Source of the DNA: Nocardioides aurantiacus
GTDB lineage: Bacteria; Actinomycetota; Actinomycetes; Propionibacteriales; Nocardioidaceae
Direction: 5' to 3'
Length of the DNA stretch: 64,000 nucleotides
Assembly (NCBI RefSeq): GCF_003752505.1
Contig: NZ_RKHO01000001.1
Coordinates: 3,534,001 to 3,598,000, forward strand
Below, in pieces: positions 2 to 11,871 of the stretch (position 1 is its first letter; every line of letters starts with the position of its first letter). The notes beneath the pieces were generated by a model. The model did no database searches. It had not been told where the DNA came from and was given only the letters and a program-made list of their open reading frames with translations. The translations under genes were made by a program, and so were the position numbers.

Positions 2-241
2 GACTCGGATGCGTCGCTGGCCCAGGTCGCCAAGGACTTCGGCATCTCGCCGTCGTGCCTGAAGCGCTGGGTCACGATCGATGACAAGAAGTCTGCCCGC
101 CCATCCTCAGCCGGCCGAGCGCCCGTGGAGTCCGACGCGCTGCGCGAAGCGAACAAGCGAATCAGGCTCCTCGAGCAAGAGAACGAGGTTCTGCGCCGCG
201 CCGCTGCGTATCTCTCTCAGGCCAACCTGCCGGGAAAATGA
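2..241 (+). CDS. IS3-family transposase OrfA, 5' end cut by window edge
   Basis: This is the helix-turn-helix subunit of an IS3-type transposase, which binds the element ends and works with OrfB. The readable part contains an HTH (VAKDFGISPSCLKRW) followed by a leucine-zipper-like stretch (ALREANKRIRLLEQENEVLR), the usual OrfA layout. The start lies left of the window. The stop TGA at 239-241 overlaps the OrfB ATG at 238-240 in an ATGA arrangement. OrfB is in the -1 frame and a run of four A (235-238) sits at the junction, so either translational coupling or a -1 frameshift could produce OrfB or an OrfAB fusion. Confidence 0.85.
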   Translation, partial: DSDASLAQVAKDFGISPSCLKRWVTIDDKKSARPSSAGRAPVESDALREANKRIRLLEQENEVLRRAAAYLSQANLPGK

Positions 242-1140
242 TGTACCCGCTCGTCCGCGAGCTGGCCGCCGATGGGGTCCCCGTCGCGGTGACGTGCCGG
301 GTGCTGAAGATCGCTCGCCAGCCCTACTACCGCTGGCTGGTCAATCCGGTCACCGATGCCGAGCTGACCGCGGCCTACCGGGCGAACGCGTTGTTCGACG
401 CCCACCGCGACGACCCCGAGTTCGGCTACCGGTTCCTCCTCGACGAAGCCCGCGGCGCAGGTGAGCCGATGGCCGAGCGGACCGCGTGGCGGATCTGCTC
501 CGACCTCGGTTGGTGGTCGGCGTTCGGGAAGAAGCGCGGCAGGAACGGGAAGAAGCCGGGCCCGCCGGTGCACGACGACCGCTGCGCCGTGGTCGACGAC
601 CAAGGCAGGATCCGCCACGAGTTCACCGCCACCGGCCCGAACGAGCTGTGGCTGGCCGACATCACCGAGCACTGGACCGGGGAGGGCAAGCTCTACGTCT
701 GCGCGATCAAGGACGTCTGCTCCAACCGCATCGTCGGCTACTCGATCGACTCACGGATGAAGTCCCGGCTCGCGGTCGCTGCGCTGAACGACGCAGTCGC
801 TCGCCGCGGCAAGGTGGCCGGTTGTGTCCTGCACACCGACCGAGGATCGCAATTTCGAAGCCGCAAGTTCGTCCACGCGCTCAACCGCCACGACATGGTC
901 GGCTCGATGGGCCGCGTCGGCGCAGCCGGCGACAACGCAGCCATGGAGAGCTTCTTCTCGCTGCTGCAGAAGAACGTCCTCGACCGCCACCCCTGGGCCA
1001 CCCGTGAAGAGCTGAGGATCGCGATCGTCAGGTGGATCGAGAGGACCTACCACCGGCGCCGGAGACAGGCTGCTCTCGGGCGATTGACCCCGGTCGAATA
1101 CGAGCTGATCATGACTCCAACCGCCACCCAGGCGGCCTAA
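238..1140 (+). CDS. IS3-family transposase OrfB (DDE integrase core)
   Basis: This is the catalytic transposase subunit, a 300-residue rve/DDE recombinase that cuts and joins the element ends. The catalytic residues are visible: Asp141 in WLADITEHW, Asp201 in HTDRGSQF and Glu237 in DNAAMESFF. The second Asp and the Glu are 35 residues apart, the IS3-family spacing. An HTH_21-like segment (EFGYRFLLDE) comes before the core. Length is typical and no internal stop is seen, so the protein looks intact. The terminal inverted repeats could not be defined because the left end is outside the window. Confidence 0.93.
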   Translation: MMYPLVRELAADGVPVAVTCRVLKIARQPYYRWLVNPVTDAELTAAYRANALFDAHRDDPEFGYRFLLDEARGAGEPMAERTAWRICSDLGWWSAFGKKRGRNGKKPGPPVHDDRCAVVDDQGRIRHEFTATGPNELWLADITEHWTGEGKLYVCAIKDVCSNRIVGYSIDSRMKSRLAVAALNDAVARRGKVAGCVLHTDRGSQFRSRKFVHALNRHDMVGSMGRVGAAGDNAAMESFFSLLQKNVLDRHPWATREELRIAIVRWIERTYHRRRRQAALGRLTPVEYELIMTPTATQAA

Positions 1141-2232: not shown

Positions 2233-2578
2233 TCCAGTCGAGTAGAGACGCATAAACAAGGCCCCGCTCTCACGCGGCTCGATGCGCACCACCGCTAGAT
2301 GGGGTGGCGGACTGCCCTTGGACACCTGCTTGCTGAGCCACGACGCGTGAGCTGGCAACGGCAGCGGAAAGTCTTCGTTGATTCGGGAAGGTGCAGGTCA
2401 GCCTCTGAATTCTGCTCACGCGATCTAGCAGTTGCACCCATAGCCAACAAAATCAGCACCCATCATTTCGCGCATCCGTTCCGCGAGCCTGGCCTAGGCA
2501 CTTCTCATGCTGATCTGACCTCCTGTTGGCGCCGGGTTCGGTGACGCTAGACCTGTCCCGTGTCAGGTTGGCACGGGT
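2233..2578. other. Intergenic region without recognisable features
   Basis: About 350 bases separate the secreted protein from the 5'-nucleotidase remnant. Neither strand holds a frame with a plausible ribosome binding site and protein-like composition, and no RNA gene was recognised. Confidence 0.5.
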
Positions 2579-2830
2579 TCAGGGACTTGCCTCGTTCGCG
2601 ACGCCGTACGGGATGTGGACCGCGACGACATCCTCAAGCGCCCCAGTGAGGTGGAGGTCCTGGTCGTCGAAGTAAATGTGTGGCTGCATGACCCGCAGTA
2701 CGCGCGCCTTTTCGATACCGCCGAGAAAGAACGCGTCGTCGACCCGCACGCCCCACTCCCGGAGGGAGTGCACCGCGCACTCGTGCGCGGAGGCGTTCCG
2801 CGCGGTGACCAGTGCGATACGAAGGCGTGG
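2579..2830 (-). pseudogene. 5'-nucleotidase C-terminal fragment
   Basis: The minus strand encodes about 84 residues resembling the C-terminal third of cytosolic 5'-nucleotidase I-type proteins (PF06189): RLRIALVTARN, LREWGVRVDDAFFLGG, a FDDQ segment and a closing HIPYGVANE. The similarity stops abruptly near 2830; upstream sequence in the same frame is low-quality. The matching N-terminal fragment lies at 4390-4518 on the same strand, directly after hsdR. The middle of the protein (roughly 170 residues by family length) is missing and replaced by foreign DNA. The gene would have hydrolysed nucleoside monophosphates and is now non-functional. Confidence 0.75.
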
Positions 2831-2970
2831 GGTGTAGTCGGGTTCATCCGACCGACGTGTGCGGCCCGTGCAACCGCGCGCGTGGAGCCGGACGCGACCG
2901 CGAGGACCACGGGACGGGAGCCCTCGAAGGGTCTCCGGGACCGAGGGGTAAGCCGCAGTGCCAATCACAC

Positions 2971-3186
2971 TTAGCCGACGAACCCAGCGAGCCAGTCCGC
3001 GACCCTCTCCTTGTAGATCGCCGTCACGGCAGCGAGGCCGAACAGAATGGCCGCAAAGTCGGACCCAAGCGATCGCAACGAAGAGTTCGGACCCATGAAC
3101 CAACCGACAATCATGAACAGCAGGCTCACGAAGCCGCCGATCGTGAGCGCGCCCACGGTGTAGTTCACGAACTCGAGAGGCTCCAT
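2971..3186 (-). CDS. Small membrane protein, unknown
   Basis: This frame encodes 71 residues with two predicted membrane segments (around residues 10-31 and 42-58), joined by a short polar loop (GPNSSLRSLGSD). The composition is clean and protein-like, unlike the other frames here. The ribosome binding site is weak. It lies in the DNA that replaced the middle of the 5'-nucleotidase, beside two other minus-strand orphan frames. Its function is unknown; it could be cargo of the invading element or a chance ORF. Confidence 0.45.
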   Translation of the reverse strand: MEPLEFVNYTVGALTIGGFVSLLFMIVGWFMGPNSSLRSLGSDFAAILFGLAAVTAIYKERVADWLAGFVG

Positions 3187-3243
3187 GGCACGGATGCTCT
3201 CACAAAGGCGGGAGGGATAATTGCAGGTGGTGCCTTGGCGCGC

Positions 3244-3504
3244 TCAGTCTCCGGGCCACTTGTCTTCGACCATGTCGACGTTACGCACGGAGCCGTACAT
3301 CCCTGGCGCCAGGACTTCGACAACCTCCCCTTCGAGGTAAAACAGGACGGCTCCACCGTCGACCTCGATCAAGTCGGCGAATCGCAGTTCCGAGTCAGCT
3401 TGGAAGCCTTGCGGGACTTCCATGCCTTTCGCTATCGCCTCATCGTGGGCGCGCTGTCGCGTGGACGCCCAGGTATTGCTGTATCGGATCAGGTACGGCA
3501 GCAT
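3244..3504 (-). CDS. Small hypothetical protein, possibly 5'-truncated
   Basis: This frame encodes 86 residues of balanced composition (for example RFADLIEVDGGAVLFYLEGEVVEVL), which looks like a genuine beta-rich protein tail. GAGG abuts the ATG, too close for good initiation, and the first terL-like repeat starts 13 bases upstream. It may therefore be the C-terminal part of a longer gene cut during rearrangement. No family was recognised. Confidence 0.45.
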   Translation of the reverse strand: MLPYLIRYSNTWASTRQRAHDEAIAKGMEVPQGFQADSELRFADLIEVDGGAVLFYLEGEVVEVLAPGMYGSVRNVDMVEDKWPGD

Positions 3505-3516
3505 CCTCGGACGATC

Positions 3517-3572
3517 TCATGAGGGCGGGCCCGAAGGCCGGCGTGGACGACTCGCCGCTCCCGTTTCGCCCG
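3517..3572 (+). repeat. 56-bp direct repeat, copy 1 (terL 5'-end-like)
   Basis: This 56-base segment matches 3948-4003 at 53 of 56 positions. Read from ATG 3519 it encodes MRAGPKAGVDDSPLPFRP, almost the same peptide as the start of the terL fragment at 3950, then diverges. It also contains an imperfect GC-rich inverted repeat around CGAA. It is best explained as a second copy of a terminase gene start. Confidence 0.8.
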
Positions 3573-3593
3573 TGGGATACGCCGCGACCCCGG

Positions 3594-3935
3594 TTATGCA
3601 AGGCGCGAGAGCAATCGGAGTACTTGCACGACCAGTTGCAGATTGGCTGCGAAGAAGGCCGTCAGGGCCGCAAAACGAAGCCACTGCCAACCGAGGACCG
3701 AGTTCTGCAGGTAGCGGCCGCGCGCAACGTCGTCCCTATCTTCGTCGTGTTGGTGGGTGAGAAACAGGCTGAAGTTTGTGAAAAGCCTCGGGACCTTGGC
3801 ATCGGGCCACCCGGATCTGCGGACATCGGCTTGGTACGCCCATGCACTGACCTGCGCTCCAGTTCCGAGCAGCGCGGCACCGGAGGCCACCCAAGCGAAT
3901 ACACCGAAAACGAAGTCGAGCAGCGCATTTGTCAC
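3594..3935 (-). CDS. Membrane protein, unknown
   Basis: This frame encodes 113 residues with a hydrophobic N-terminal segment (about residues 5-30), a polar middle containing a HQHDEDRDD acidic/His patch, and a C-terminal hydrophobic segment (WLRFAALTAFFAANLQLVVQVL). It starts at GTG 3935 with AAGG about 7 bases upstream. It lies between the two terL-like repeats, so it may be cargo inserted into or next to a terminase gene. No family was recognised. Confidence 0.5.
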   Translation of the reverse strand: MTNALLDFVFGVFAWVASGAALLGTGAQVSAWAYQADVRRSGWPDAKVPRLFTNFSLFLTHQHDEDRDDVARGRYLQNSVLGWQWLRFAALTAFFAANLQLVVQVLRLLSRLA

Positions 3936-3947
3936 GGCAGGACCTTG

Positions 3948-4003
3948 TCATGAGGGCCGGCCCGAAGGCCGGCGTGGACGGCTCGCCGCTCCCGTTTCGT
4001 CCG
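3948..4003 (+). repeat. 56-bp direct repeat, copy 2 (start of terL fragment)
   Basis: This is the second copy of the 56-base repeat (first at 3517-3572). It contains a perfect 7-bp hairpin, GCCGGCC-CGAA-GGCCGGC, at 3956-3973. Its frame from ATG 3950 continues straight into recognisable terminase sequence, so the repeat is probably the coding start of terL rather than a stand-alone element. Confidence 0.8.
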
Positions 4004-4390
4004 CGCTCCGTCGGTGCTGCTCGGTTCAGCAAGTTCTGCGAGTCGTTCATCGTCACGCCGAGGGGCACCGGTGCGCTGCAGCCGATGAAGATGCGGCCGC
4101 GGCAGCTCGACCTCGTCGGCTCCGTCCTCGACGCCAACCCTCGTCCGCGCACCGCGGGCTGGATGATGCCGCGCGGGCGGGGCCAGTCAACGCTGGTCGC
4201 CGCGCTCGGCCTTTACGACCTCATGCTCGGCGAGGAAGGCGCGTCGGTCGTGGTAGCTGAGGTCGACGAGCGGCAGGCCGGAATCGTGGTCAGGACGGCC
4301 GCGCGGATGGTGGAACTATCCGAGGACCTGTCGAGCCGCGTGCAGGTCTACAAGGACCGTCTGGCGGTGCCCGAGCGGGGCGCGTCGTTC
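3950..4390 (+). pseudogene. Phage terminase large subunit, N-terminal fragment
   Basis: About 147 residues resemble the N-terminal ATPase region of actinophage large terminases, the motor that packages DNA into proheads. Visible features are SVGAARFSKFCESFIVTP, LVGSVLDANPRPRTAGWMMPRG and a Walker A-like loop GRGQST, in which the usual Lys (GQGKST) is replaced by Gln. The similarity ends at about 4390, where the frame runs into antisense of the 5'-nucleotidase N-terminus and stops at 4441. The truncation, the lost Lys and the lack of other phage structural genes mark it as a remnant. Confidence 0.75.
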
Positions 4391-4518
4391 GTCTGCCTGC
4401 GGTACTCCCTGTACGCCATCTCGCCGTACTTGCGGAAGTAGGCGTCCGACTCGGTGAGGTCGAACAACGCGCTGGAAGCCACGCCGACGACGAGCCGGTT
4501 TTCTAGTTCGTATGCCAT
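4390..4518 (-). pseudogene. 5'-nucleotidase N-terminal fragment
   Basis: The start of a PF06189-type cytosolic 5'-nucleotidase: MAYELENRLVVGVASSALFDLTESDAYF with the family's conserved opening, ATG at 4518 and AAAGGAA about 8 bases upstream. It lies 25 bases after the hsdR stop on the same strand, so it was probably the last gene of the restriction operon. After about 43 residues the sequence switches to antisense of the terL fragment. The C-terminal remnant is at 2579-2830. Confidence 0.75.
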
Positions 4519-4543: not shown

Positions 4544-7500
4544 CTACGCGACGGTGACGTCAGGGAGTGCCCGGTCGCGTACCTCGCTGAGGATGGTGAC
4601 GATGTCGTCGACCTGCTCCTCGTTGAAGATGCTGTCGGGGCCATGGGGTGCGCTGTCGGTGAACGGGGACTCGTAGAGGCGGGCCACCTCCATGACGCCG
4701 TTGGCGGTGAGGTGCTCCACGATCAGGTTGACGAAGCGGAGCTGGTTGGCCGTGAACGTCGTGTCGGTGAGGTAGCGGTCGAAGGCCTGGGTGGCAGCGG
4801 CGCGGTCCAGGCCCACCAGGGAGCGGACGAACAGTCCGAGGCCGTGGGCGTCCTCGCGGGCCTTGGCGAGGTCGGCCTCGGTGCCGGCGCCGGACTCGAG
4901 CAGCATCGCCTCCAGGGCGGTGAGGTCGTCCGGGGTCAGTTGCAGGTTGCGGCGCAGGCGTTGGAGGGCGAGGTGGTCCTCGTGGTCGCGGAGGTAGGCG
5001 CGGGCCTTGGCGCGGAAGCGTTCCCAGTTCGTGCCCGGGGTGACGCCGGGCAGCTCCACGATGGTGCCCTCGCCGAGCTCGTCGGCGAAGTTGGAGTAGA
5101 CGACGGCGCGCTTGGTCTTGTCCACGAACCGCACCAGGGCACGCACCCGGCGCCGTGCCAGCTCCAGCATCGGCAGGGTGACATCAACCCACCAGTCGTC
5201 CTCCGACAGGCTCTCCAGCAGCACTTCCTGGGCCTTGACCGAGGGGATCGCGGTCTGGCCGAGCAGGGCGGTGGCGATGTCCTGGACCTGCTTGCGCAAG
5301 CGCTCGAACAGGACCGCGTCGCTCTCCAGACGGGCGAGCTGGAGGCGCAGCAGGATGAGGTCGAACCGTTTGGCGTCCTCGTCGTCGTCGCGCTCGGTGG
5401 AGGGCAGCCCGGCCAGGTGGCGCGCGACGTCGCCCGCCTTCTCCGGTGGCATCTGCTGCCAGGCCTCCCACTCGGAGTAGGTCTCCACCCACTGCCGGGC
5501 GGGACGGACCAGGAAGTTGTCGGTGTTCATGCCGGCCACGACCTGGTGCAGCGACCAGGCGACGTCCACACGGAGGCCGCGCTCGGACCTCTCCCCCTCC
5601 CCGACCGCAGGGTCTTCTCCGGGCTCGGTCGGGGCGTCCTGGTCCAGCGCCGCGACCAGCCCGAGGCGGGTCTCGAAGAGCCGCTCACCCAAGGACTTCT
5701 GCAACGAGCCCTCGGTGCCGGGCAGGTCTTGGCCGAAGTACTCCAGGTTCTGGCAGAAGTCGAAGACGTAGAAGTTCTTCTTGTCATCCCCTGGGCCGAA
5801 CAGGTCCGGGCACAGTCGGGTGCCGCGGCCGATCATCTGCCAGAACTTGCTCTTGGCGCGCACTGGCTTGAAGAACACCAGGTTGAGCACCTCGGGGACG
5901 TCGATGCCGGTGTCGAGCATGTCCACGGAGATCGCGATGTGCGGGGCCTTGTCCTTGACCGAGAAGTCGTCGATCAGGGACTGGGCGTAGGTGACGCCGT
6001 GGGTGATGACGCGGGCGAAGTGGCCGGCGTGCTCGGGGTAGTTGAGGTCGAAGCGCTCCCGGATGAACTCGGCGTGCTTCTGGTTCTTGGCGAAAACGAT
6101 CGTCTTGCCCAGGCGGTCTCCCCCGGCGACCTTGAGCCCGTCAGTCATCAGTGTGGCCAGGACCTTGTCGACGGTGTCGGCGTTGAAGAGGAACTGGTTG
6201 AGCTCGGCGGCCGCAACCTCGTCGGGGACCTCGCCCTCCTCGTTCCACTCGGCCCTGTCCCAGTCGTCCTTCTCCTGCTCCGACAGCTCGTCGTAGCGGA
6301 TGCCCTGACGCATGAACTTCAATGGCACCGACACCCCCACCGGGGGCACGAGGTAGCCCTCGGCGACGGCCTCGTCCAGGCTGTAGGCGTCGGTGGGGAC
6401 GCCGTCCTCGAGGTTGAACAGCGTGTAGGTGTTGCGGTCGACCTCGTTCTTCGGGGTCGCGGTCAGGCCGACGAGCAGGGAGTCGAACCAGCCGAAGATG
6501 GCCTTGTACTTCTGGTAGACCGAGCGGTGGGCCTCGTCGATGACGACCAGGTCGAAGTAGCCCGGGCCGAACATCCGTGCGCCGCCGTCGGTGACGTTGA
6601 TCAGGTTCATCATTGTCGGATACGTCGAGACGTAGACCCGACCATCGGCGCTCTTCTCGGTCACCAGGTTGACCGTGGTCACGTTCGGTAGGTGCGCCTT
6701 GAACGCGCCGGCTGCCTGGTTGACCAGTGCGGTGCGGTCGGCGAGGAACAGCACCCGCTTGACCCACCCGGCGCGCATGAGCTGGTCGACGAGCGCGATC
6801 ACTACGCGGGTCTTGCCTGACCCGGTCGCCATCACCAGCAGGGCGTCGCGCTGCCGGGCAGACAGCGCCTCGCCGATCGTGCGGATGGCGCGGTGCTGGT
6901 AGTGGCGCTCGACGATGGTCTTGTCGATCACCGTGTCTGCCAGGGTCAACCGGGTGTTGCGCCGGGCGACCATCAGCTCGAGCTCGTCGCCGGCGAAGAA
7001 CCCTTCGACCTTGCGCGGCGGGTAGCCGGCGGCGTCGTCCCACAGCCAGGTCTCGTAGCCGTTGGTGTAGAGGATGACCGGCCGGCGGCCGGTCATGGTC
7101 TCTAGGCAGTCGGCGTACAGCTTGGCCTGCTGCTGCCCGATGCCGGGGTCCTTGGTGGTTCGCTTGGCCTCGATCACCGCCAGCGGCAGCCCGTCGGCCC
7201 CCCACAGGACGTAGTCGACGTACCCGAGCCCCTGAGCGTTGGGCATGCCGGTGACCTCGAACTCGCGGTCGCGGGCCTCGGTCAGGCGCCAGCCGGCCTC
7301 GCGGAGCAGCTCGTCGATGATGAGCTCGCGGGTCTGGGCCTCGGAGTAGTCGTGGGTGTCGGTCAGGGTGTTCGCGGCCTGGACGGCCTTGATCTCGGCG
7401 CGGAGCTCGGTGATCTCGGCGTCCTTGGCCGCACTGAGCTCGTCGCGCTCCTTGAGCGCCTTGGCGTGGGCTTCGTCCTGGTCGTGGAACTTCTTGGCCA

Positions 7501-7960
7501 GCGCCGCGACCTCGGCGCGGGTTAGTGGTGCGTTGCTGCCCGCGACCGTGGGGTCGAACACCGTCCCGGTGGGGACTGCGGCCGGGTCTGTGGAGTAGCG
7601 GAAAGCCGTCCACACCACGACGTGGTGCAGCTCGCGCAGCACGTCGACGGCTGCCCGGGGCGGGATTGGCTGGACGTAGTGCACGGCCCGGTTGCCGAGC
7701 TTGCGGATCAGGTTCAGCTTCGCCCCGATGCCGGAGCCGACCTTGTTGCGAAACGCCGCCTCGTTGATCCGGGCAGAGAGGTCGTCCTTGTAGGGCACCG
7801 GCAGCGCGTCGACGTCGTAGATCAGCCCTACCAGCTGCTCAGCGGCCCTGCGCGCGTAGATGCACGCGGTGCGCGGGTCCGAGGCCAAGTAGCCCTCAGC
7901 CCGCGCGCAGTCGGCGTAGGTCTGGGGCCACTCGGCCTTGATGAAGTCGAAGTTGGCCAC
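4544..7960 (-). CDS. hsdR: Type I restriction endonuclease R subunit
   Basis: This is the motor and nuclease subunit of a type I restriction-modification complex, which translocates and cuts DNA lacking the host methylation. The 1138 residues show, in order, an N-terminal DUF4145-like helical domain (about 1-125), a coiled coil (about 150-195), a PD-(D/E)xK nuclease (Asp249, Glu264-A-Lys266) and an SF2 helicase: Walker A ATGSGKT at 378-384, DEAH at 475-478, TATP near 501 and QMIGRGTR at 708-715. An EcoEI-like C-terminal region follows. It starts at GTG 7960, 9 bases after hsdS. All key motifs are present, so it looks functional. Confidence 0.95.
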   Translation of the reverse strand: MANFDFIKAEWPQTYADCARAEGYLASDPRTACIYARRAAEQLVGLIYDVDALPVPYKDDLSARINEAAFRNKVGSGIGAKLNLIRKLGNRAVHYVQPIPPRAAVDVLRELHHVVVWTAFRYSTDPAAVPTGTVFDPTVAGSNAPLTRAEVAALAKKFHDQDEAHAKALKERDELSAAKDAEITELRAEIKAVQAANTLTDTHDYSEAQTRELIIDELLREAGWRLTEARDREFEVTGMPNAQGLGYVDYVLWGADGLPLAVIEAKRTTKDPGIGQQQAKLYADCLETMTGRRPVILYTNGYETWLWDDAAGYPPRKVEGFFAGDELELMVARRNTRLTLADTVIDKTIVERHYQHRAIRTIGEALSARQRDALLVMATGSGKTRVVIALVDQLMRAGWVKRVLFLADRTALVNQAAGAFKAHLPNVTTVNLVTEKSADGRVYVSTYPTMMNLINVTDGGARMFGPGYFDLVVIDEAHRSVYQKYKAIFGWFDSLLVGLTATPKNEVDRNTYTLFNLEDGVPTDAYSLDEAVAEGYLVPPVGVSVPLKFMRQGIRYDELSEQEKDDWDRAEWNEEGEVPDEVAAAELNQFLFNADTVDKVLATLMTDGLKVAGGDRLGKTIVFAKNQKHAEFIRERFDLNYPEHAGHFARVITHGVTYAQSLIDDFSVKDKAPHIAISVDMLDTGIDVPEVLNLVFFKPVRAKSKFWQMIGRGTRLCPDLFGPGDDKKNFYVFDFCQNLEYFGQDLPGTEGSLQKSLGERLFETRLGLVAALDQDAPTEPGEDPAVGEGERSERGLRVDVAWSLHQVVAGMNTDNFLVRPARQWVETYSEWEAWQQMPPEKAGDVARHLAGLPSTERDDDEDAKRFDLILLRLQLARLESDAVLFERLRKQVQDIATALLGQTAIPSVKAQEVLLESLSEDDWWVDVTLPMLELARRRVRALVRFVDKTKRAVVYSNFADELGEGTIVELPGVTPGTNWERFRAKARAYLRDHEDHLALQRLRRNLQLTPDDLTALEAMLLESGAGTEADLAKAREDAHGLGLFVRSLVGLDRAAATQAFDRYLTDTTFTANQLRFVNLIVEHLTANGVMEVARLYESPFTDSAPHGPDSIFNEEQVDDIVTILSEVRDRALPDVTVA

Positions 7961-7969
7961 GCGGCACTC

Positions 7970-9088
7970 TTACCGTGTGTCTGTCGACGGCCGGGCAAGC
8001 ATCCGGGTTACTAGCGAGACTCGCAGCGCATCCAGCTCCGAAGCCTGCGTGCGTTGGTCACGAGAAAGGGCTGCCACAGCCTCGGCACGTCTCACGAACT
8101 CGTGCTGCACTTGCAGGTCTGGCAACTGCACAATCGCCTCCTGAAGGTATGGCAACTTGATGTACTTGATCACACCGCCAATGCTCTGGGCACGCAGTCG
8201 TTCGACGTAGAGATCCAGAAATGCGTGAAGAAATTTGGGTAGGGCCGCAGTCTCGTCGGCACTCTCAATCACGTATGTGCGCTGGTAGGCATTGAATTGG
8301 CCCTCGTAGTACTTGACGTTCAGGTCTCCATTCCCCGCTACCAGTATCGCCTTGCAGTCGAAGGCCGGCACGTCGATGCGCGACGGGCGACTGGCGCAGG
8401 TGAAGAAAGGAAACTCGCCATCTTCCACAGCAGCATTCGCGTCAAGCTTCCCGGTCCTGATCCGAACCAATGAGCCCAAGAGTGTGGGAGATGTCGGCAA
8501 CGAGCCCGCGGAGCCCGGGACTCGCGGGTCCCCGAACATCTCAAGAAAACAAGACTTCTTCAGGTCATCGAGGTGGGCGAGGGCGACGCTGCGCTTGAGG
8601 CAGAGTGAGTCGGTGTGGTCCAGGATTGTGGCGATGCGGCGCTGCTCGGCGAGAGGTGGGAGCGGCAGCTCGGACTGCTTGACGATGCGGTCCGAGACCG
8701 CTGGGTAGCTCGACCCGGTGGCCTTCCGGACCATGTCCACAATGAATCCCTCTGAACGCACCCAGTGGAACAAGTACCGGCCGTGGAGATCCCGTGTGGG
8801 CCTCAGCACGGTGAACCCCGTGGATGCCGTCGCGCCATCCAGATGTGGCGGGACAACGGCAACAGCATTCAGGTTCGGGCGCACGGTGGACACGAGGACA
8901 TCCCCGGCGGCAACAAGTTGGCGAGCTCGGCTCGGAGCCTCGGCCGAAGAGACACCCGCAGCGCCCGTGACCTCTTTGCGAGAATTATCAACGGCACCCA
9001 GATCGATGTAGTCGAAGGCGACGGGCTCGGTCGCTCTACTCGGATTCCAGGTCGACACCCGGGTAGTCACGTCCCCGATCCTCTTCAC
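7970..9088 (-). CDS. hsdS: Type I restriction-modification specificity subunit S
   Basis: This is the DNA-recognition subunit, which directs HsdM methylation and HsdR cleavage to a bipartite target. The 372 residues have two target-recognition domains. The first is followed by the conserved region LPPLAEQRRIATILDHTDSL and a long helix ending KSCFLEMFGDPR; the second TRD ends with IVQLPDLQVQHEFVRRAEAV. The GTG start at 9088 overlaps the hsdM stop by four bases (GTGA), implying translational coupling. The target sequence cannot be read from the gene. Confidence 0.93.
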   Translation of the reverse strand: MKRIGDVTTRVSTWNPSRATEPVAFDYIDLGAVDNSRKEVTGAAGVSSAEAPSRARQLVAAGDVLVSTVRPNLNAVAVVPPHLDGATASTGFTVLRPTRDLHGRYLFHWVRSEGFIVDMVRKATGSSYPAVSDRIVKQSELPLPPLAEQRRIATILDHTDSLCLKRSVALAHLDDLKKSCFLEMFGDPRVPGSAGSLPTSPTLLGSLVRIRTGKLDANAAVEDGEFPFFTCASRPSRIDVPAFDCKAILVAGNGDLNVKYYEGQFNAYQRTYVIESADETAALPKFLHAFLDLYVERLRAQSIGGVIKYIKLPYLQEAIVQLPDLQVQHEFVRRAEAVAALSRDQRTQASELDALRVSLVTRMLARPSTDTR

Positions 9089-10554
9089 GAAAGCAAAGCT
9101 CTCAGATCTGCGAGGCCGTGCTGGATCTCGGCTTCCAGATTTTCAAGGTCAGCGAGGATGTCGAGCGGCGCGCGGTGCTCGACCTCGTCATGGACGGCCT
9201 CCCTGTAGCGGTTCAAGGAGAGGTCGTAGCTCTGGGCGGCGATGTCGGCCTTCGGGACGAGGAACGACTGGTCAGTGCGCGCCCGGTCGCGCTCCGGCGA
9301 GCCTGGTTCTGACGCGCTCAACCCACGGGCCAGGACGTCGGGGAGGTCGTTGGCCTCGATGGGGTTGCGCTTGTCGTCGAGGCTGAAGCCGTCGGCGTGC
9401 ACGTCGTAGAACCAGACGTGGTCGGTGCCGCCGGAGTTCGTTTTGGTGAAGAACAGGATCGCGGTGGACACTCCGGCGTACGGCTTAAAGACCCCGGAAG
9501 GGAGCTTCACCACTGCTTCGAGCTTCTGGTCCTCGACCAGGATCCGGCGAAGATCCTTGTGCGCCTTGGACGAGCCGAACAGCACGCCGTCCGGAACGAT
9601 GACGGCTGCACGGCCGCCGGGCTTCAGCAGACGGAGGAAGAGTGCCAAGAAGAGGAGCTCCGTCTTCTTGGTCTTGACGACGCGCTGAAGGTCCTTCGAC
9701 GTGGACTCATTGTCCAAGCTCCCTGCGAAGGGCGGGTTCGCCAGAATCAGCGAGTAGCTCCCTTCCTCATCTGAGGCGCCCTCAGAGAGGGAGTCGCGGT
9801 AGCGGATGTCGGGCTGCTCCACGCCGTGGAGCAGCATGTTCATGCTGCCGATGCGGAGCATGGTCGAGTCGAAGTCGTAGCCGTGGAACATGCCGTGGTG
9901 GAAGTGCTCGCGCTGCTTCGCATCCGTCATCACGGAAGGGTGGTGCTCGCGCACGTACTCCGAGGCCGCGACCAAGAACCCAGATGTGCCTGCCGCCGGG
10001 TCGCAGACCTCGTCGGTCGGCTGCGGCGCCGTCATGTTGACCATCAGCTTGATGATGTGACGGGGGGTGCGGAACTGGCCGTTCTGGCCGGCCGAGGCGA
10101 TCTTGCTGAGCATGTACTCGTAGAGGTCACCGGTGGTGTCGCGGTTGTCCATCGGGATGTCGTCGAGCATGTCGACGACCCGGGACAGCAGCGCCGGGGT
10201 GGGGATGGTGAACCGGGCGTCCTTCATGTGCTCCGAGTAGGTCGACCCGTCCCCGCCCAGCGTGCGCAGGAGTGGAAAGACCCCCGCGCCGACGATCTTG
10301 AACATGACGCCGGGCTCGCGGCTCTTGAAACGGGACCAACGCAGCTCGTCCTGGCCCGGCTGGAAGAGGGGGCCCTCGACCGGCTGGCCGGTGCGGTTCG
10401 CCTTCTTCTCCGCAAGGGTCTGCAGGTCATCCAGTCTCCGGATGAACAGCAGGTAGGTGATCTGCTCAATGACCTCCAGGGGGTTCGCGATACCCCCGGA
10501 CCAAAAGGCGTCCCAGACGCGGTCAACCTTGTTCTTGAGGTCTCCGGTGATCAC
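9085..10554 (-). CDS. hsdM: Type I restriction-modification DNA methyltransferase M subunit
   Basis: This subunit transfers methyl from S-adenosylmethionine to adenine N6 at the target defined by HsdS. The 489 residues contain an N-terminal HsdM_N helical domain, the SAM-binding motif DPAAGTSG at 185-192 and the catalytic NPPF at 273-276, followed by the N6-MTase fold. It starts at GTG 10554 (GTGATCACC), with AGGG upstream. It is second in the minus-strand operon, 22 bases after the EcsC-like gene, and is coupled to hsdS by a GTGA overlap. Confidence 0.95.
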   Translation of the reverse strand: MITGDLKNKVDRVWDAFWSGGIANPLEVIEQITYLLFIRRLDDLQTLAEKKANRTGQPVEGPLFQPGQDELRWSRFKSREPGVMFKIVGAGVFPLLRTLGGDGSTYSEHMKDARFTIPTPALLSRVVDMLDDIPMDNRDTTGDLYEYMLSKIASAGQNGQFRTPRHIIKLMVNMTAPQPTDEVCDPAAGTSGFLVAASEYVREHHPSVMTDAKQREHFHHGMFHGYDFDSTMLRIGSMNMLLHGVEQPDIRYRDSLSEGASDEEGSYSLILANPPFAGSLDNESTSKDLQRVVKTKKTELLFLALFLRLLKPGGRAAVIVPDGVLFGSSKAHKDLRRILVEDQKLEAVVKLPSGVFKPYAGVSTAILFFTKTNSGGTDHVWFYDVHADGFSLDDKRNPIEANDLPDVLARGLSASEPGSPERDRARTDQSFLVPKADIAAQSYDLSLNRYREAVHDEVEHRAPLDILADLENLEAEIQHGLADLRALLS

Positions 10555-11585: not shown

Positions 11586-11795
11586 AGCTGAGGATCGACC
11601 AAGCCGGTCGGCAGCCCCTACTGCCACGCGAACGTGGCACGAGGACACCAGGTGTCTGGCTCGGTGAACGAGAACGAAGCTGGCCCGGACGGGGGGCACC
11701 GCGACGCCCGTCTGCGATGATGTGTCCAGGTTCAGAGAACGGGGTTTTCCTGACGGTAGTCCCTACGAAAGTCCTGATTAAAGTCCTGATCCCCC

Positions 11796-11871
11796 GGGCC
11801 TCTAGCTCAATTGGCAGAGCAGCGGACTTTTAATCCGCGGGTTGTGGGTTCGAGTCCCACGGGGCCCACCA
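11796..11871 (+). tRNA. tRNA-Lys (TTT anticodon)
   Basis: Complete cloverleaf: acceptor GGGCCTC pairs with GGGGCCC, D-arm AGCTCAATTGGCAGAGC, anticodon stem GCGGA/TCCGC with loop CTTTTAA giving anticodon TTT, T-arm GTGGGTTCGAGTCCCAC, and an encoded CCA at 11869-11871. It lies at the boundary between the accessory region and core-like genes. Confidence 0.95.

Follow-up and report, generated by a model that had tools for sequence, protein, structure and literature searches.

Why does a 5'-nucleotidase gene of Nocardioides aurantiacus lie in two pieces on one strand, and what is the DNA that separates them? The locus occupies positions 2579-4518 of the window, a stretch of 64,000 nt (contig NZ_RKHO01000001.1, positions 3,534,001 to 3,598,000) that was analysed as a whole. 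An earlier note, made from the letters alone, read it as a nucleotidase gene split by foreign DNA.

The broken nucleotidase gene and its surroundings

Both pieces lie on the minus strand and match PF06189 above the curated cut-off. The N-terminal remnant, comprising the first ~39 codons (4401-4518), covers profile positions 1-47 (3.4e-11), and the C-terminal remnant (2579 to about 2862) covers positions 220-302 (4.6e-32). Both also align to an intact gene of 311 aa in G020, a genome from another species of the genus, which served as the uninterrupted reference: window 2579-2857 is 81% identical in nucleotides to L003 2155-2433, with the local alignment running slightly beyond 2857, and window 4401-4518 is 86% identical to L003 1501-1618. 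Thus, the earlier view that the two fragments belong to one gene is upheld, as is the view that its middle is missing. Between the two pieces 536 bp of the reference are unmatched, with ~1.54 kb of foreign DNA instead, and profile positions ~47 to ~220 are absent, leaving an incomplete domain. Compared with PF06189 5'-nucleotidases in general, the pieces come from one such gene, but with ~536 bp of its middle gone; read from its sequence, it is a broken pseudogene rather than a functional member of the family. No further PF06189 copy was found in the same genome. Neither fragment was seen as an independent complete gene in relatives; intact, full-length PF06189 genes are present in 14 other genomes of a family sample of 285, one of which (G020) is among the 23 other genomes of the genus. 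In G020, upstream of the intact gene (L028/L003), there is a protein whose start resembles, by eye, those of TIR-like nucleotide-binding proteins. A stretch of ~94 bp on the 3' side of the nucleotidase stop (window 2371-2464) is 70% identical to the matching G020 site, including GGGTGCTGATTT.

At the right junction, terL and the nucleotidase have ~4 bp in common (CCTG; by eye); this boundary had been placed at about 4390 and is real, although it falls at 4400/4401, about 10 bp away. At the left junction (~2857-2866), ~5 bp are common to the HNH gene and the nucleotidase, again by eye. No transposase, att site or target duplication was seen at either breakpoint. The short common sequences, together with the lack of these features, are consistent with illegitimate recombination, by which ~536 bp of the nucleotidase would have been replaced. 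The terminase-bearing DNA in the gap and the absence of an insertion sequence (IS) at the breakpoints agree with the earlier reading of a combined deletion and insertion. A simple IS insertion is rejected on the same grounds, there being no target duplication and the IS3-like transposase lying more than 1.4 kb off. That transposase, which has an integrase core domain, is located at window 238-1140. In itself, a split nucleotidase is ordinary.

The locus is situated within a low-GC accessory region beside a tRNA-Lys gene (11796-11871). In G009, the nearest relative found, homology breaks off at window coordinate -4707 and is picked up again at 11794, immediately ahead of the tRNA gene; the flanks are the same and the interval, 5.3 kb long, has no DNA similarity, indicating that the site is variable. 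Adjoining the pseudogene, upstream of it, are minus-strand type I restriction genes: hsdR (4544-7960), hsdS (7970-9088) and, judging by position, probably hsdM (9085-10554). The nucleotidase does not appear to be a usual partner of hsdR. It was not seen beyond the end of hsdR in the three nearest hsdR relatives (G137, G193 and G050) or in G021, and in G248 and G284, which hold both genes, the two are not adjacent. In L080 and L081, which carry close hsdR relatives, three convergent ORFs downstream of hsdR have, by eye, the look of a recombinase-type mobility cassette.

The insert and its parent elements

The insert had been described as terL fragments accompanied by unrelated orphan ORFs. Instead, the sequence reads as a single collinear plus-strand piece that runs from the end of an HNH gene to the beginning of terL, since its 5' side matches an HNH 3' end, which the earlier note had missed, and its 3' side matches a terL start. 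The 3' end of the HNH endonuclease gene (~2857-2973; CGPCN...GKPQCQSHL), whose 5' part is lost, is 78% identical in nucleotides to L090 534-637; window 2856-2959 aligns inside the L090 HNH ORF, the gene that precedes terL in relatives, and the HNH family was assigned on the relatives L100 and L139. At the other end, one truncated terL (3950-4400), cut after ~150 of ~490 codons, matches phrog_9, the terminase large subunit (1e-15). Window 3951-4400 aligns with the start of ~490-codon terL genes, including two copies in G166 (79% DNA identity), and its Walker A motif has glutamine in place of lysine (GRGQST for GQGKST). The only other terL material is a 64-bp copy of the 5' end (3509-3572, plus strand; leader and 18 codons, translated as MRAGPKAGVDDSPLPFRP), which is 91% identical to 3940-4003. 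Thus, of the reported fragments, terL itself is present, as one truncated gene and a short repeat. No other terL of this kind was found in the same genome.

Three small ORFs are found on the minus strand between these ends: ORF71 (2971-3186), a small putative membrane protein whose codon-position GC is 0.56/0.43/0.83 and whose stop codon faces the leucine codon with which the HNH motif ends; ORF86 (3244-3504), whose start codon is 15 nt from the ATG of terL copy 1; and ORF113 (3594-3935), a putative membrane protein with a GTG start 15 nt from the ATG of terL copy 2. None of the three matched Pfam, PHROGs or PADLOC. ORF86 and ORF113 were not found in plasmids and viral contigs, nor ORF86 in genome contigs and family genomes, nor ORF113 in phages; two weak ORF113 matches in family genomes look like chance. 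The structure model of ORF113 is helical, of low confidence and too poor for a structure search. Calling them orphans was thus correct as regards database matches; it overlooked their place on the antisense strand upstream of terL, which is conserved in many relatives.

The elements to which such HNH-terL pairs belong are ~10 kb long, have the layout integrase-HNH-terL-portal-capsid, and sit mostly on contigs of 8-13 kb. Among the L139 ORFs scanned against PHROGs are an integrase, an HTH protein, a primase-like protein, HNH, a portal, a major head protein and a head-tail adaptor. An element on a Tsukamurella plasmid is annotated with the same gene set, without tail genes before the next integrase. 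An integrase of their own, HNH, large terminase, portal, capsid and connector are found in L139, L100 and the Tsukamurella element. No small terminase is named and no tail genes were seen among the scanned L139 ORFs or in the annotation of L212, and no helper phage has been identified. The closest terL match among 50,697 phage records is ~35% identical. Two genomes, G166 (L026, L027) and G371 (L182, L188), each contain two near-identical satellite-like terL copies. As the window holds only the part from the HNH 3' end to the truncated terL, it contains no complete element; the segment 2857-4400 is, in our judgement, probably a relic of a capsid-forming, satellite-like integrative element, a probability that applies jointly to the whole explanation given below.

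The antisense gene between HNH and terL

Dereplication of the terL relatives at 97% identity left 91 loci. These are related, so that the counts that follow are not phylogenetically independent. In about 25 of the 91, the HNH-terL interval holds a small antisense gene with coding-like codon-position GC, L026, L102, L103 and L207 having been left out because there the frame was read as the antisense of the HNH end. The distance from the antisense start to the terL start is exactly 15 nt in 15 loci (ORF113 of the window among them), 16-18 nt in 8, with single loci at 21 and 24 nt; L152, with a 15-nt gene that failed the codon-position GC filter, is extra to the 15. A slot gene is defined here as a minus-strand gene between HNH and terL that starts 15-24 nt from the terL start, a definition that takes in both ORF86 and ORF113, at 15 nt each. 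The median distance from HNH to terL is 141 nt without a slot gene and 414 nt with one. At the clearest loci (L089, L090, L092 and L097), the antisense stop lies opposite the leucine codon that closes the HNH motif GK.QSPL; at some other slot loci, the HNH gene ends and a short bridge frame starts in an RTGA overlap.

Slot proteins fall into several unrelated groups: family A, the helical family B, membrane proteins, a lipoprotein-like DUF4333 protein and singletons. Family A proteins are small and predicted to be all-beta; a six-stranded beta model (pLDDT 79) had no significant match in the PDB. ORF86 is tentatively assigned to this family, with which it has the motif GG(A)VL...APG in common. 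It matches the L100 antisense protein with a blastp E of 0.003, and the family-A HMM at E=0.014 (5.8 bits), under the inclusion threshold. The lipoprotein-like slot gene, at L203 2365-2721, matches DUF4333 (2.3e-07) and starts 16 nt from terL. Nearly all tested slot cargo is without a Pfam or PADLOC match, and none of it matched a known defence model in PADLOC. The comparison of relatives shows the HNH-terL space of the parent elements to be, as read from their sequences, a cassette slot for a small antisense gene.

The opposite strand at these loci is also constrained. Codon alignment between the antisense gene and a sense frame whose TGA overlaps the terL start (ATGA or GTGA) is found in 21 loci, counting both window cassettes, and in 21/21 this coupled frame has no stop across the antisense gene. 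In the window, the HNH reading frame (2812-3522, plus strand) is open across ORF71 and ORF86 to a TGA that overlaps the ATG of terL copy 1, and the copy-1 frame continues as a bridge (3519-3953, plus strand) that is open across ORF113 and ends in ATGA at terL copy 2. Six other loci are out of phase or have no overlap at the terL start, and all six show an interruption in the frame that leads to terL (Fisher P=3.4e-6, for related loci); some slot loci at 16 or 17 nt, or without ATGA, break the open-frame rule. The codons of 20 aligned slot genes tell the same story: among 1,643 codons there are no TTA, CTA or TCA, while 13% of codons in the other four-fold boxes end in A (P=4e-11). These three make up 1.1% of codons in leftward control genes of the same elements, a rate at which ~18 would be expected. 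Statistically, then, the coupled sense frame is kept free of stops.

A frame can be kept open for different reasons. One is that it only shields the late transcript from Rho-dependent termination, with no translational coupling between HNH and terL. The slot inserts roughly 200-350 nt of GC-rich RNA between the two genes, and translation would protect such RNA from Rho-dependent termination (polarity). The frame that is open, however, is the one that ends in the overlap with the terL start, an overlap that plain avoidance of polarity would not need, and where the overlap is absent the frame reaching terL is interrupted. We regard polarity avoidance by itself as an unlikely account.

A second alternative would make the antisense ORFs mere shadows: the only real gene would be the HNH or bridge sense frame, and the opposite strand would be open through high GC. 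With a real sense frame, the absence of TTA, CTA and TCA from the other strand is automatic; long codon-aligned antisense ORFs are frequent in GC-rich coding DNA; and in ORF113, GC is equal at codon positions 1 and 3. In most slot genes, however, GC is highest at position 3 of the antisense codons, and the start offset is exactly 15 nt across unrelated proteins. Slot genes are also present at loci with an interrupted sense frame (L152, L154, L167, L195, L197 and L203). Moreover, the antisense protein alignments beat the sense translations. In family B this holds for every pair; in family A it holds for most (the best pair reaches a z of 11.4 as antisense and 0.5 as sense), with a few giving no signal or the reverse. 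This protein similarity shows that the antisense strand holds the primary gene, and we give the shadow explanation little credence.

Proposed stacking of cassettes and a model for the slot

The order in the window is ORF71, ORF86, the 18 codons of terL copy 1, ORF113 and terL copy 2. From this anatomy we infer that the three ORFs represent two stacked slot cassettes. The second cassette would have come into an already occupied slot, immediately behind its terL start, turning the old terL 5' stub into a bridge frame that leads to the new terL; such an entry explains both the 64-bp repeat and the stacked ORFs. No terL 5' repeat was found in the other loci of the 91, so that the stacking model is drawn from one case. 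The first letters of the bridge are RTGARR at several other loci, which resembles a minimal terL stub and is only suggestive. Integron-like cassettes were considered and rejected: what is repeated is coding sequence from the terL 5' end, and inspection by eye showed no attC feature. That the insert is decayed prophage debris, with fragments stacked by chance rearrangement and small ORFs that have nothing to do with the slot, would suit the truncated terL with its altered Walker A, the lack of detectable homologues of ORF71 and ORF113, and a terL repeat unique to this locus, but it is improbable given that ORF86 and ORF113 both follow the 15-nt rule, that both sense frames end in ATGA, and that ORF71 stops at the HNH boundary, as in intact relatives.

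The arrangement suggests how the slot probably works. The coupled frame is likely to be kept open because translation of terL would depend on ribosomes coming from HNH or the bridge, or at least for continuity of the transcript. In the lysogen, while the late genes are off, the cargo gene would be transcribed from inside terL, and a running late operon would silence it. A promoter scan gave one weak antisense site inside terL, which is not interpretable. The weakest step is the function of the cargo, which might serve the lysogen as an accessory or anti-phage gene, perhaps for exclusion, as several of the proteins resemble membrane proteins or lipoproteins. The whole model (a relic left by illegitimate recombination, an antisense cassette slot, an open coupled frame, cargo for the lysogen, and stacking) is the explanation we consider probable. 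Its generalization is put forward with confidence only slightly above even: actinobacterial capsid-forming satellites would have a dedicated antisense slot for exchangeable, lysogeny-expressed cargo that avoids stops in the sense frame, new cargo entering at the terL start and leaving a bridge stub, and the cargo may form a reservoir of superinfection-exclusion or defence genes.

If true, this reading accounts for an otherwise odd split-gene locus. The slot would be a repeated natural experiment, in which unrelated genes in one place all adapt to an open opposite frame, and a precise, searchable place for satellite cargo of unknown function. No prior description of it was found in the open-licence papers searched, and the slot is apparently undescribed. 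It joins two known kinds of arrangement, the accessory hotspots of satellites and antisense overlapping genes.

The parent elements themselves are like the capsid-forming PICIs (cf-PICIs; summarised in PMC10690885) and the candidate mycobacterial PICIs, including phiRv1 and phiRv2 (PMC10654092), in their size of ~10 kb and in their integrase, HNH, large terminase, portal, capsid and head-tail connector, with no tail genes seen among the ORFs scanned in L139 or annotated in L212. They differ in that no small terminase was identified among those ORFs, and no account of an antisense slot between HNH and terL was found. The accessory or anti-phage hotspots of P2-like phages and P4-like satellites (PMC9122126) similarly consist of a fixed site between core genes with exchangeable, mostly unknown cargo. 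Unlike these, the slot belongs to another type of element and another position, holds just one small antisense gene, set at a constant distance from terL, and carries cargo that matches no known defence model. Finally, like antisense overlapping genes of bacteria (for example, PMC9927249), the slot has an open reading frame on each strand of the same DNA. It differs from them in that the overlap recurs at one position with unrelated genes, and in that codons placing a stop in the other frame are measurably avoided.
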